Source: Candidatus Aenigmatarchaeota archaeon
GTDB lineage: Archaea; Aenigmatarchaeota; Aenigmatarchaeia; QMZP01
Direction: 5' to 3'
Length of the DNA: 33,098 nucleotides
Assembly: GCA_017609225.1 (NCBI GenBank)
Contig: JAFCEK010000002.1
Span: 1 to 33,098 of the forward strand
Shown: one piece after another, positions 29,433 through 33,098 of the stretch
Layout of the letters: the number at the start of each line of letters is the position of its first letter
Position numbering within the stretch: position 1 is the first letter of the stretch
The notes under the pieces: model-generated
What the model saw: the letters and a program-made list of their open reading frames with translations, nothing else
Databases searched by the model: none
What the model was told of the DNA's origin: nothing
Made by a program: the position numbers and the translations under genes

Positions 29433-29900
29433 TTACCCGAACAGGCTGCTTAGTCCTGCTGCTGCCTCTTCAGCTTTCTTGGCAGAATCTTCCTCTTTCT
29501 TTTCTTCCTTTTTTTCCTCTGTTTTTTCTGCTGCTGGTGCTGCTGATGGGACTGCAACTGCCTGCTTTACTGCTTCATCTATGTTGACTCCTTCAAGGCT
29601 TGCAACAAGAGCCTTGACCTGTGCTTCATCCGGTTTCTCTCCTGTAGCCTCTATTACCTTTTTTACTCCCTGTTCATCAACAGGCTTTCCGGCTGAATGG
29701 AGAAGCAATGCAGCATATACATAGTTTACCTTGGGTTCTGCCTTTGCTTCCTCTGGTTTTTCTTCGGGTTTTTGCTCTTTTGCATTTTCCTTGGATTCTT
29801 TCTGCTCTTCTGGTTTTGCCTCTTCATTTGAAGCTTCCTGCTTTGGCTCCTCTTTTGGCTCTTCCTTTTTTTCAGCTTCTGGTTTGTTTTCCTCTGTCAT
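29433..29900 (-). CDS. rpl12: Ribosomal stalk protein L12 (archaeal P1-type) with long N-terminal extension
   Basis: L12 dimers bind L10 and recruit translation factors to the ribosome. The canonical archaeal domain starts at about residue 58 ([20 protein letters not shown]). It runs through the dimerisation helices, an Ala/Pro/Glu/Lys hinge, and the factor-binding tail [10 protein letters not shown]. The preceding 57 residues are almost only E, K, P, A and Q ([16 protein letters not shown]). They replace the usual start immediately before YVYAALLL, and no alternative ATG, GTG or TTG lies near the canonical start. The ATG at 29900 has a strong GGAGGTG Shine-Dalgarno eight to nine bases upstream, so the extension appears genuine. 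Last gene of the stalk operon, 25 nt after L10. Confidence 0.93.
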
Positions 29901-29925: not shown

Positions 29926-30759
29926 TCATTTTATTTTTTCCTTGAGTGCCGCTGCATGGGCACTGGCACAGGCAAGCATCTGGGCTATATTTTCCTGGGT
30001 TGGTATGCCTGCCTCCAATGATAATGAAAGTGCCTCATTATATGCCTTTGATATCAGTATTGAAATGTTTTCTGGAGTAAAGTAATTTATATTTATTGAA
30101 AGATTGAATCCCTGGGATGCGCAGGATTTTAGTGCATCCAAATATGCATCCTTTGGTATGAACAGTATATCTTTTGTATATATGGTCCCGTTTTCCCAGG
30201 CAGCTGCAAGATTCAGGCCGAGATTCATGGGATTAATTCCAAGCTTTGAAAGAACATCTGCAAGCTCTTTGCTTATTTCATCTCCCTCTTTTGCCACAAC
30301 AGTGTCCTCTTTTACAACAATTTTTTCTGCCTCAACGCCTGCCGGGATTTTAACCTTCTGAAGCTCTCCTATAACAGGTCCCGGAGCAAGGTTTGTGGGA
30401 CCTGCCCTGACAACAATATCATTGGGTGCTATGTCACCAGGTTTGGCAGGCGCCTCTGATTTTGATTCTTCTATTATTCTTGCAAGCTTGAACGGATTTT
30501 CACTGCTGAACAGGAATGCCGGCTCACCTTCTATATATGCCTCAAGTCCTGACAGCCCCTTCTTTTTTGCTTCCTTGAGTATGATTTTTATAAGCCTCTT
30601 TTTGACCATTTTTATTACTGCCTTTCCTCTCAGCTTTTCTCTTATCTGATGGAGCTGCCTGGCAGGCAGTTTGTGCATATTCAGTATTCCTATAACAGGG
30701 TATTTCTCCATCTTTTCCTTAACCTCTTTCACTGTTTTTATTTTCTTTTTACTTACCAT
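29926..30759 (-). CDS. rpl10: Ribosomal protein L10 (archaeal P0-type), lacking the acidic C-terminal tail
   Basis: L10 anchors the L12 dimers to 23S rRNA at the GTPase centre. The rRNA-binding domain (KTVKEVKEKMEKYPVIGILN, HQIREKLRGKAVIKMVKKRL) is followed by the archaeal insertion domain (PGDIAPNDIVVRAGPTNLAP, KIPAGVEAEKIVVKEDTVVA). The start of the L12-binding helical spine is present (TPENISILISKAYNEALSLS). The protein ends at residue 277 with ALKEKIK. Archaeal P0 usually continues for a further 50 or more residues through more spine, an acidic stretch and a GLFG-like end. None of that is present, and the stop is followed directly by the L12 leader. A GAGGT Shine-Dalgarno precedes the ATG. 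Possible consequences are fewer bound L12 dimers and no P0 factor-binding tail. Confidence 0.93.
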   Translation of the reverse strand: MVSKKKIKTVKEVKEKMEKYPVIGILNMHKLPARQLHQIREKLRGKAVIKMVKKRLIKIILKEAKKKGLSGLEAYIEGEPAFLFSSENPFKLARIIEESKSEAPAKPGDIAPNDIVVRAGPTNLAPGPVIGELQKVKIPAGVEAEKIVVKEDTVVAKEGDEISKELADVLSKLGINPMNLGLNLAAAWENGTIYTKDILFIPKDAYLDALKSCASQGFNLSININYFTPENISILISKAYNEALSLSLEAGIPTQENIAQMLACASAHAAALKEKIK

Positions 30760-30772
30760 ACTACTACCTCTT

Positions 30773-31603
30773 TTACCTGAATGGAACCTTTACAGCCGGT
30801 CCCATTGTTAGTTTGACATGCACGGATTTTATATTGTTAACGCCTTTTGGCAGTTTTTCTTTTATTGACTCCAGCACAGCATCCGCATTTGCAGCCACAT
30901 CATCATCAGGCATTTTTTCTGAACCAATAACCATATGAACTACAGGGCTTTCTTTGAGAGAGATTCTGATTGTTTTGTTTGCCATAGCAACAAAGGGTTC
31001 TATTTTTGCATTCGGTGGTACTGGCTTTGGCACCTTGCCTCTCGGGCCAAGAACTGCTCCAAGGCTTTTACCAATCAGCGGCATGAGTGAAACCTCGCTG
31101 TAAAACCAGTCATATTCATTGGCTATTTTCTTCATTTTTTTTCTGTCCTTTGCGAGTTTTTCTATCTCATTCTTGCTTACAACAAGTCCTATCCCTTCTG
31201 CTTTTTTTGCCAATGTTGTAAGGCTGTCTGTAAACATTGCTATTTTAACTGGCTTGCCTCTTCCCTTTGGAAGTGAAAAATCATAACTGAATCTGTTTTC
31301 GGGTTTTTTCAGGTTTATATCCTTCAGATTAACAGAGATTGTCCATGTCTGCTCAAAATTTCTTTTTTTTGAGTTTTCCCTTGCCTTTTTTATGCCATCA
31401 AGCACTGTCTTTATTTTGGTTTTTTCTTCATTCTCCGGGCTGGGTTTTTCAGGCACAGAGCCCTGGCTGCCCTTTTTTTTAATTTTTGCCTTTTCAATCC
31501 TTTCCGCATCAGAACCAGCAGTACTGGGTTTTTTGGTTGCTTCTTCTGAATCAGTATGCCCTAGCCTTTTCTCTGCCTTCCTAGCGGGTTGTTCCCTGTC
31601 CAT
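30773..31603 (-). CDS. rpl1: Ribosomal protein L1 with charged N-terminal extension
   Basis: L1 forms the mobile stalk at the ribosomal E site and in archaea often represses its own operon. The canonical domain begins near residue 62 (KIKTVLDGIKKARENSKKRN). It contains WTISVNLKDINLKKPENR, GPRGKVPKPVPPNAKIEP and the C-terminal VKLTMGPAVKVP block. I chose the ATG at 31603 because TAGGAGG lies about six to twelve bases before it; the frame stays open 11 codons further. Residues 1-61 are a Lys/Glu/Ser/Pro-rich extension (EQPARKAEKRLGH, PEKPSPENEEKTK) that standard L1 of about 215 residues lacks. A GTTTATAAATAC TATA box lies upstream, so L1-L10-L12 can be transcribed separately from L11. Confidence 0.93.
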   Translation of the reverse strand: MDREQPARKAEKRLGHTDSEEATKKPSTAGSDAERIEKAKIKKKGSQGSVPEKPSPENEEKTKIKTVLDGIKKARENSKKRNFEQTWTISVNLKDINLKKPENRFSYDFSLPKGRGKPVKIAMFTDSLTTLAKKAEGIGLVVSKNEIEKLAKDRKKMKKIANEYDWFYSEVSLMPLIGKSLGAVLGPRGKVPKPVPPNAKIEPFVAMANKTIRISLKESPVVHMVIGSEKMPDDDVAANADAVLESIKEKLPKGVNNIKSVHVKLTMGPAVKVPFR

Positions 31604-31608
31604 TGCAA

Positions 31609-31680
31609 TCCTCCTACCGAAGTAGTATGAAAGCATCCTGCTTTGGATGTTATGAATATTAGCATGGAAGTATTTATAAA
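31609..31680 (-). promoter_or_regulatory. Promoter and leader of the L1-L10-L12 genes
   Basis: A TATA box (minus strand TTTATAAA, 31673-31680) is followed by a leader of about 40 nt that ends with the Shine-Dalgarno GGAGG just before the ATG at 31603. The leader is where autoregulatory L1 binding would be expected, although I see no clear copy of the rRNA-like L1 target. Confidence 0.5.
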
Positions 31681-31718
31681 CTTTAGGTGCTTTCTCCCAA
31701 TAACTTTTATGTTAATGC

Positions 31719-32216
31719 TTATTTTCTTGCCCTTATTTTTTTCATTCTTTCCTTCAGGGTTTCATGCTTTCTTTCAAGGGCTTTAAGCCTTTTTTCTGTC
31801 TGCTGCCTTTTTTTGAACTCCTGCACAATAACCTTTGTTGCATCATTCAGCCGGTTTTCAATTTCCACCATCTTTCTTATCAAATCCCTCTGCGTTTTTT
31901 CTATTTTTTCATCAAGGTCTGCCCTTTTCACATCAAGATGGTAAAGCCTGTTTTCATGCCTTTCCTTCAGGTTGCGCGTCAGCGAATGGCTCTTGTCCAT
32001 CCAGTTTGTAAGATATCTTATGCTTTCAGCAAATTCCTTTTTTTGTCTTTCAAATTCCCTGTTTGAAAGCTCTTCATTGATTTTATGTATGCCTATGACT
32101 ATTACCATCAGGCCGAATGCTATATCCAGAAAGAATATATTAAACGCTGTCTGGAATATTATTGCTGCTCCAAGTATTACAAACAATATCCAGAATATTG
32201 TATTCCAGGTTATCAT
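31719..32216 (-). CDS. Membrane protein with long coiled coil, inserted in the ribosomal protein cluster
   Basis: I do not recognise this 165-residue protein. Two adjacent hydrophobic segments (about 5-22 and 26-43: NTIFWILFVILGAAIIF, IFFLDIAFGLMVIVIGI) form a hairpin anchor. About 115 residues of highly charged, heptad-like helix follow (EKIEKTQRDLIRKMVEIENR, EKRLKALERKHETLKERMKK), almost certainly a cytoplasmic coiled coil. The basic end is KKIRARK. It lies between L11 and L1, where archaea normally have no gene. A GTTTAAATTATTT element about 27 nt before the ATG suggests its own leaderless promoter. A membrane-tethering or scaffold role is conceivable, but nothing in the sequence identifies one. 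Confidence 0.65.
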   Translation of the reverse strand: MITWNTIFWILFVILGAAIIFQTAFNIFFLDIAFGLMVIVIGIHKINEELSNREFERQKKEFAESIRYLTNWMDKSHSLTRNLKERHENRLYHLDVKRADLDEKIEKTQRDLIRKMVEIENRLNDATKVIVQEFKKRQQTEKRLKALERKHETLKERMKKIRARK

Positions 32217-32255
32217 GTTTCGCTATTAAACAGTAAATAATTTAAACCTTTCGCT

Positions 32256-32879
32256 CTATTTGTCCTGCTTTTCCTCGGGTTTTTCCTTTGTTTCAGCTGG
32301 TTTTTCTTCTGCTGCTTCTGCCTCTGCTTCGGCTGGCTTTTCCTTTTCTTCAGCCTCTGCCGGCGCCTCCTCTTCAGTTGTCTTTGCCCTTGCCGACTCC
32401 TTTGCTGCCTCTTCCTCTGCCCTTTGTTTGTCCAGCTCTTCGTATCTTTTAAGCTCCTCTTCTGTTATGGCGCCTTTTCCTATTGTCACGCCCATGCTCC
32501 TTGCTGTTCCTTTTACCTGGTTCAGGAATTGCGGGTCATCAGAACCGAATTTCATTTTTGATATTTTCTTTACCTGCTCCTCTGTCAGGTCACCAACCCT
32601 TTTTATGCCAGGCATGTCGCAGCCCTTGTTTATGTCAATCTCTTTTTTTATCAGCGCTGAAACCGGTGGCGTTCCAACCTCTATTTCAAATGTTTTCTTT
32701 TCTGTATCAACTATAACCTTAACCGGCACCTGCATTCCCTTAAGCTCGCCTGTTTTCTCATTTATGCTGTCTATAACCTCTTTTATGTTTACACCCAGAG
32801 GTCCCAGTGCAGGACCGAGCGGCGGGCCTGCTGATGCCTTTCCTCCTTCCACCATTGCTGAAACTGTTTGCTTTGGCAT
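32256..32879 (-). CDS. rpl11: Ribosomal protein L11 with charged C-terminal extension
   Basis: L11 binds the 23S rRNA GTPase-associated centre at the base of the stalk. Residues 1-150 are a complete archaeal L11: [20 protein letters not shown] at the N-terminus, [12 protein letters not shown] in the middle, and the C-terminal rRNA-binding domain with [13 protein letters not shown]. From about residue 150 to 207 a tail of almost only E, A, K and P follows ([20 protein letters not shown]), which typical L11 of about 160 residues lacks. A TATA-like TTTAAATAG lies in the 42-nt spacer to the gene before it. GGTG near the ATG may act as a weak Shine-Dalgarno. It is first in the visible L11-L1-L10-L12 order. 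Confidence 0.94.
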
Positions 32880-32891
32880 ATTACACCAACA

Positions 32892-32908
32892 TTTCTTTTT
32901 AAAAGAAA
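32892..32908. promoter_or_regulatory. Near-perfect palindrome in the L11 leader
   Basis: TTTCTTTT and AAAAGAAA are 8-bp inverted arms around a single base. They lie between the TATA-like element (near 32911-32919) and the L11 ATG, at or just upstream of the expected transcription start. This could be a regulator site or simply the T-rich terminator of the upstream gene. Confidence 0.35.
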
Positions 32909-32921
32909 CAACTATTTAAAT

Positions 32922-33098
32922 TTATTCTTCTTTCTTTTCCTTCTTCTTTTCGCCAGGCTCTTCTGTTTCAGGGCCTTCTTTGATTATTTCTGCCTGCTCT
33001 GGTTCTGTTTTTTCCGGCTCTTTTGGCGGATATTCCTCTTCTCCTTCTTTTATAAGATGCTCTCCCTCCCTTGCCTCTTCTTCTATGGCTTCCATTGG
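32922..33098 (-). CDS. C-terminal tail of the gene preceding L11 (charged low-complexity; identity unresolved)
   Basis: Only the last 58 residues are in the window. They are dominated by E, K and P (EREGEH-like start, PPKEPEKTEPEQAE, PGEKKKEKKEE) with no recognisable fold. In archaea the gene before L11 is most often the elongation factor Spt5 (NusG), so this may be an Spt5 with an acidic/basic tail, but nothing in the visible residues proves it. The tail resembles the extensions on L11, L1 and L12 in the same cluster. Confidence 0.6.
   Translation of the reverse strand, partial: PMEAIEEEAREGEHLIKEGEEEYPPKEPEKTEPEQAEIIKEGPETEEPGEKKKEKKEE

Follow-up and report, generated by a model that had tools for sequence, protein, structure and literature searches.

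Charged terminal tails on ribosomal proteins of an Aenigmatarchaeote and its relatives

Why should several neighbouring ribosomal proteins of one archaeon carry long charged extensions? The question is raised by the end of a contig (C39) in an archaeal MAG of 880 kb that is 78% complete. The organism belongs to the Aenigmatarchaeota, a phylum within the DPANN archaea. The window, which is the whole stretch of 33,098 nucleotides that was analysed, runs to the contig end at position 33098. The genes near this end are transcribed from the minus strand in the order contig-cut gene, uL11, an unnamed membrane/coiled-coil gene, uL1, uL10 (aP0) and L12 (aP1). An initial annotation, which omitted the gene at 31719-32216 between uL11 and uL1, described tails on uL1, uL11, L12 and the gene before uL11. 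It ascribed them to independent gains under a shared pressure, such as salt tolerance or tethering at the factor-binding side of the ribosome, rather than to chance. The features concerned are listed below.

29433..29900, minus strand: L12 (aP1), 155 aa, ending in GLSSLFG (TIGR03685 above cut-off)
29730..29900, minus strand: charged N-terminal extension of L12, residues 1-57
29926..30759, minus strand: uL10 (aP0), 277 aa, ending in ALKEKIK (PF00466, PF17777; alignment with PDB 3a1y)
30773..31603, minus strand: uL1 with corrected start, 276 aa (PF00687, 154.5 bits)
31403..31603, minus strand: charged N-terminal extension of uL1, about residues 1-67
31610..31625, minus strand: uL1 leader hairpin CUAC-UUCG-GUAG running into GGAGG (Shine-Dalgarno), conserved and covarying
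31719..32216, minus strand: unnamed conserved gene flanked by uL11 and uL1, whose product combines two hydrophobic segments with a long coiled coil
32256..32879, minus strand: uL11, 207 aa (PF03946 and PF00298 above cut-off)
32259..32429, minus strand: C-terminal tail of uL11, about residues 151-207 (from canonical length and AlphaFold2)
32922..33098, minus strand: C-terminal E/K/P tail of 58 residues in the gene before uL11, whose 5' part is lost at the contig end

All four tails exist and have lengths near those first given, but the start of uL1 needs correcting. The longest open reading frame of uL1 covers 30773-31636 and encodes 287 aa. Its first 11 codons (MLSYYFGRRIA) coincide with a conserved leader hairpin and Shine-Dalgarno sequence, so the start is placed at 31603 and not at 31636. 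The protein contains the Ribosomal_L1 domain expected of archaeal uL1 (PF00687). The domain common to relatives starts near residue 67, which gives about 66 extra N-terminal residues instead of about 61. AlphaFold2 models of uL1 and uL11 were built on alignments of 32 and 28 sequences. In the uL1 model, residues 1-50 have a pLDDT of 50-64, and the first secondary structure is a helix at residue 56.

The leader hairpin lies immediately 5' of the uL1 start and occurs before uL1 throughout the order, with the consensus CYRC-NNNN-GYRG into GGAGG (for instance in L038, L047 and L058). It was found in all 37 readable leaders, 36 of them by pattern, including the window's own, and one as a 5-bp variant. 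Both inner pairs covary, and none is broken among 19 distinct sequences. A UCCG is usually present a few to 20 bases upstream. The leader matched no family in Rfam. It probably marks an mRNA site, in overlap with the Shine-Dalgarno sequence, at which L1 regulates its own synthesis. In a Thermoplasmata record from Guaymas (L146:5588-6442), the uL1 open reading frame, counted from a putative start, has 77 extra N-terminal residues.

The uL11 protein contains the N-terminal and RNA-binding domains of archaeal L11 (PF03946, PF00298), and scores just under the cut-off of the NCBIfam equivalog PRK01143 (156 vs 162). It has 207 aa, compared with 158-167 aa in almost every archaeon sampled outside the Aenigmatarchaeota. 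The excess is 47 residues over canonical length and about 57 after the core, in agreement with the 57 originally counted. The AlphaFold2 model shows a helix up to residue 169, followed by pLDDT values of 41-56 that stay below 50 over residues 171-197.

At the contig end, the 58-residue E/K/P tail can be read directly in the sequence, as had been noted. Synteny and the tails of relatives indicate that the cut-off gene is most likely aSpt5/NusG, which sits upstream of uL11 in most relatives and often has a long tail of this kind. The contig breaks off inside the tail, and a search of the rest of the same genome found no NGN/KOW part of aSpt5. Tails are present on aSpt5 in 12 of 22 cases, with extensions of up to 246 residues, which makes it an exception among non-ribosomal proteins. 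Within otherwise low-complexity E/K/P sequence, motifs recur in the long aSpt5 tails (L052, L044, L049, L058, L042, L057): an SVFD-like motif in mid-tail and LLxELExEx(K)n at the terminus.

Homologues of the unnamed gene occur in 23 genomes, nearly always between uL11 and uL1. Profile searches with the gene at 31719-32216 gave no named family. Longer homologues (L047:4723-5424, L063:4622-5476) have a weak winged-HTH match at the end.

The remaining two proteins are uL10 and L12. Residues 4-265 of uL10 align with residues 6-272 of P. horikoshii aP0 in PDB 3a1y. Because this alignment follows the solved aP0 core to residue 272, the L12-binding spine is largely kept. The rRNA-binding domain is present as well (PF00466, PF17777). 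The C-terminal LFG factor-binding tail is absent, and none of 37 Aenigmatarchaeote uL10 proteins ends in LFG. Most other archaea sampled have this end, and some Thermoplasmata records (L101, L146) are also without it. L12 has the helical N-domain and the C-terminal LFG (TIGR03685, 104.4 vs 100), and its terminal LF is kept in 34 of 36 cases, the remaining two being cut or truncated. In aP1, EF1A and further factors bind to the LFG end (PMC6791870). The reported extension of L12 is real, with 57 extra N-terminal residues. A uL10 tail is never found beside an L12 tail (0/17, p=0.019) or a uL1 tail (0/19, p=0.008). The pattern is a hint, based on too few independent events for a claim, that the spine receives a charged strand from one protein or the other. 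An exchange of tails between the uL10 C, L12 N and uL1 N termini was considered and kept as a lead only, since on the tree the pattern comes down to some two gains with a single reversal (G001).

A survey of other ribosomal proteins can show how far such tails extend. It covered the uL1, uL2 and uS11 neighbourhoods of 41 genomes and 23 of about 60 ribosomal protein families, in targeted stretches. Conserved cores were set by alignment. A tail was defined as a terminus at least 20 residues over the tenth percentile of its family, with at most 25% hydrophobic residues. The material consists of one genome per species, the MAGs are incomplete, start codons were chosen mechanically, and the statistics treat genomes as independent.

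In the genome of the window, 10 of the 23 families are tailed. Outside the stalk these are uL23 (N-terminal, 67 residues), uS11 (N, 43), uS3 (C, 35), uS17 (C, 32), uS4 (C, 30), uL24 (C, 26) and eS4 (C, 24); the tailed stalk proteins are uL1 (N), L12 (N) and uL11 (C). Two further contigs of this genome, C67 and C48 (L168:1-282, L167:1-246), overlap within the uL23 gene in the common sequence ILKFPHLAEKSINMVE. They are thus probably neighbours in the genome, and once joined they give a uL23 with an N-terminal tail of roughly 70 residues.

Across the 41 genomes, tails are found in 152 of 640 ribosomal protein-genome cases and in 1 of 124 non-ribosomal ones, a difference that holds across thresholds. 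Such a terminus is absent from the 22 other genes of the window and from EF1A in the sampled genomes. The median C-terminal extension of Nop5 is 6.5 residues (4 in the window's own genome), and a basic K/R/G end, 30 residues long, occurs in a single genome. In a search for Cbf5, the DKCLD model matched weakly. A composition bias of the whole proteome is ruled out by the tail-less window genes, EF1A and Nop5. Widespread tails, which would have spoken for such a bias, do occur within the ribosome but not in the proteome. Since hardly any tails occur beyond ribosomal proteins and Spt5, a pressure shared by many proteins is plausible, but one centred on the stalk is not supported.

Tails are also concentrated by lineage. 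Tailed termini number 134 of 1265 in Aenigmatarchaeota, compared with 16 of 628 in 20 other archaea, including Methanobacteria, Methanocaldococcus, Thermococci, Hydrothermarchaeota, Asgard and Thermoplasmata. Of the 16 outside tails, nine belong to a single lineage represented by two small genomes (L112, L140); in uL10 or uL11 these are similar to an Undinarchaeote record (L118) or to one another. These two Undinarchaeote-like genomes and a DPANN genome (L144, S014_61) have similar long tails on uL11, uL10, uL22, uL24 or L12. Small-genome archaea of this kind suggest that the trait is wider than the Aenigmatarchaeota.

Within the phylum, a FastTree phylogeny of 19 proteins places the uL1 and L12 tails in a single clade (G024, G019, G014, G000, G003 and G017, where G000 is the genome of the window). 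Both were lost in G001, and the L12 tail was also lost in G017 and gained once more in G016. The uL11 tail occurs in most families across the order. Because of this shared inheritance, the four tails of the operon are not four independent events, and independent gain is not supported for uL1 and L12. Tail load varies by clade: it reaches 43-48% of families in the window's genome and its sister G014, and is close to zero for the majority of family f4. Few or no tails are present in the relatives G016, G018, G026 and G038, which means that tails are dispensable in the phylum.

The tails have a characteristic composition. In 168 tails, K+E make up 44% of the coding frame and 21% of the other frames, and R+G make up 9% compared with 26-32%. 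This frame-specific pattern cannot be explained by purine-rich DNA alone. The fraction of charged residues is 0.31-0.63 by family, and above about 0.45 in most. Tail length varies by up to two-fold or more within a genus while composition is kept. In a GC-rich genome the composition moves to A/P and the tails stay disordered. GC as a driver was rejected, as tail load shows no correlation with GC (rho 0.15). There is a weak negative trend with the thermophily proxy CvP (rho -0.32, p=0.05, kinship ignored), on which no claim is made.

Charge depends on the protein. In 18 of 22 genomes the tails of uL10, uL11 and L12 are more acidic than those of other ribosomal proteins in the same genome (Wilcoxon p=0.0025). 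The mean net charge per residue is -0.07 for stalk tails and +0.06 for other ribosomal tails, with genomes treated as independent. Spt5 tails are the most acidic (-0.19), and those of uS11, uL23 and uL24 are basic. Location thus matters for tail charge, not for tail presence, and this is the part of the stalk idea that survives.

Several explanations can be weighed against these data. Assembly errors or wrong start and stop codons could mimic tails, and the source is a MAG whose contig ends inside the upstream gene and whose uL1 reading frame begins 11 codons early. Against this, independently assembled relatives have the same tails at the same termini, the uL1 start is fixed by the conserved leader, and the tails lie in open frames with normal neighbours. 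Artefact is refuted for uL1, uL11 and L12, and its overall probability is negligible. The same recurrence in relatives bears out the view that the tails go beyond chance; they are neither accident nor annotation error. If the tails were a device specialised for the GTPase centre and L1 stalk, serving to tether factors or stalks, this would account for the acidic stalk tails and for the tailing of three of the four stalk proteins here. Compared with 7 of 19 other ribosomal proteins in this genome, the latter gives p=0.28. Pooled over genomes, stalk families are somewhat more often tailed (44/134, 33%) than others (108/506, 21%; Fisher p about 0.004), but tests at family level are not significant (p about 0.08-0.21). 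Tails occur on uS3 in 73% of genomes and on uL24 and uL23 in 60% each, as often as or more often than on uL11 (52%) and uL10 (51%), while L12 (17%) and uL1 (16%) trail. The placing at the factor-binding side is therefore not upheld, and such a device is improbable. Salt adaptation is more improbable still. Several members are marine or from cold seeps, according to record titles, and E-rich tails resemble halophile proteins. However, in G017, a relative from groundwater by its record title, the uL1 tail measures 96 residues and the C-terminal extension of uL11 54, tail load is uncorrelated with core net charge (rho -0.11, p=0.5), and the tails are mixed-charge or basic rather than acidic overall.

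The main rival is near-neutral growth, in which purine-rich repeats at gene ends slip and the functionless products are tolerated at surface termini. Repeat periods within tails (9, 12 and 21) are multiples of three, length changes fast among congeners, and tail load is very different between relatives, all as this rival would predict. It fits less well with the lack of tails on non-ribosomal proteins, the repeated use of the same termini, the protein-dependent charge, the strong preference of the frame for K/E over R/G, and the shift to A/P in the GC-rich genome with disorder retained. It is possible, but on balance unlikely. Retention of ribosome-wide disordered polyampholyte tails for their bulk charge and disorder, after expansion that preserves triplets, is the probable explanation, with a putative biochemical role. 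The evidence indicates that the ribosome surface has changed across the lineage, with nothing special to the stalk gene cluster or to salt.

Such retention could proceed as follows. Many ribosomal proteins of both subunits, together with Spt5, have K/E/P/A-rich tails, predicted to be disordered, beyond their conserved cores. They would lengthen as short repeats near the ends of the genes expand in frame. The ribosomal-protein termini concerned lie exposed at the ribosome surface, where the tails may be retained as a charged, flexible brush that acts in bulk and would need no sequence-specific function. The brush may favour solubility, spacing, and contacts with rRNA or during assembly. With the aP0 tail lost, its charged linker would be replaced at the stalk by the acidic tails of uL10 or L12.

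Few proteins are as well conserved as those of the ribosome. Even so, within one phylum of small symbiont-like archaea many of them, and Spt5 as well, have repeatedly gained long tails that are charged and disordered, while almost none of the other proteins tested have such tails. If selection keeps these tails, they offer a natural experiment on the role of the electrostatic surface of the ribosome. The case also shows that stalk-centred explanations drawn from one operon can mislead.

Terminal extensions of ribosomal proteins and terminal K/E polyampholytes are already known, and the tail set in DPANN ribosomes appears to be unreported; a literature search, with most subscription journals outside its scope, found no description of it. 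The extensions and tails of bacterial, archaeal and eukaryotic ribosomal proteins have been reviewed with stress on positively charged, network-forming ones that contact rRNA (PMC11764897). The tails described here are likewise non-globular terminal segments added to conserved cores, but they are mixed-charge, length-variable and lineage-specific. Archaeal aP1 and aP0 end in a K/E-rich linker bearing an LFG-type factor-binding end (PMC6791870). L12 keeps this end here, whereas its extension is at the N end and has no LFG, and uL10 of the sampled phylum is without LFG.

Eukaryotic snoRNP proteins bear lysine-rich disordered KKE/D domains, which are reported to be absent from archaeal snoRNPs (PMC11528048). 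KKE/D domains sit on snoRNP and biogenesis factors, whereas the Aenigmatarchaeote tails are found on ribosomal proteins, and Nop5 has no polyampholyte tail. In both cases, strong polyampholytes of K and E/D are terminal, occur on abundant ribosome-related proteins, and appear to depend on bulk electrostatics over sequence. A wider proposal, speculative and rather doubtful as a whole, is that ribosomes across an archaeal phylum are coated with polyampholytes in parallel to the nucleolar KKE/D domains. The tails would drive ribosome clustering, or coupling of ribosomes to RNA polymerase through Spt5, in very small cells, and the charged linker lost with the factor-binding tail of aP0 would be re-supplied on uL10 or L12. 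If kept by selection, the tails would in any case be an archaeal parallel to the polyampholyte domains of eukaryotic ribosome production.
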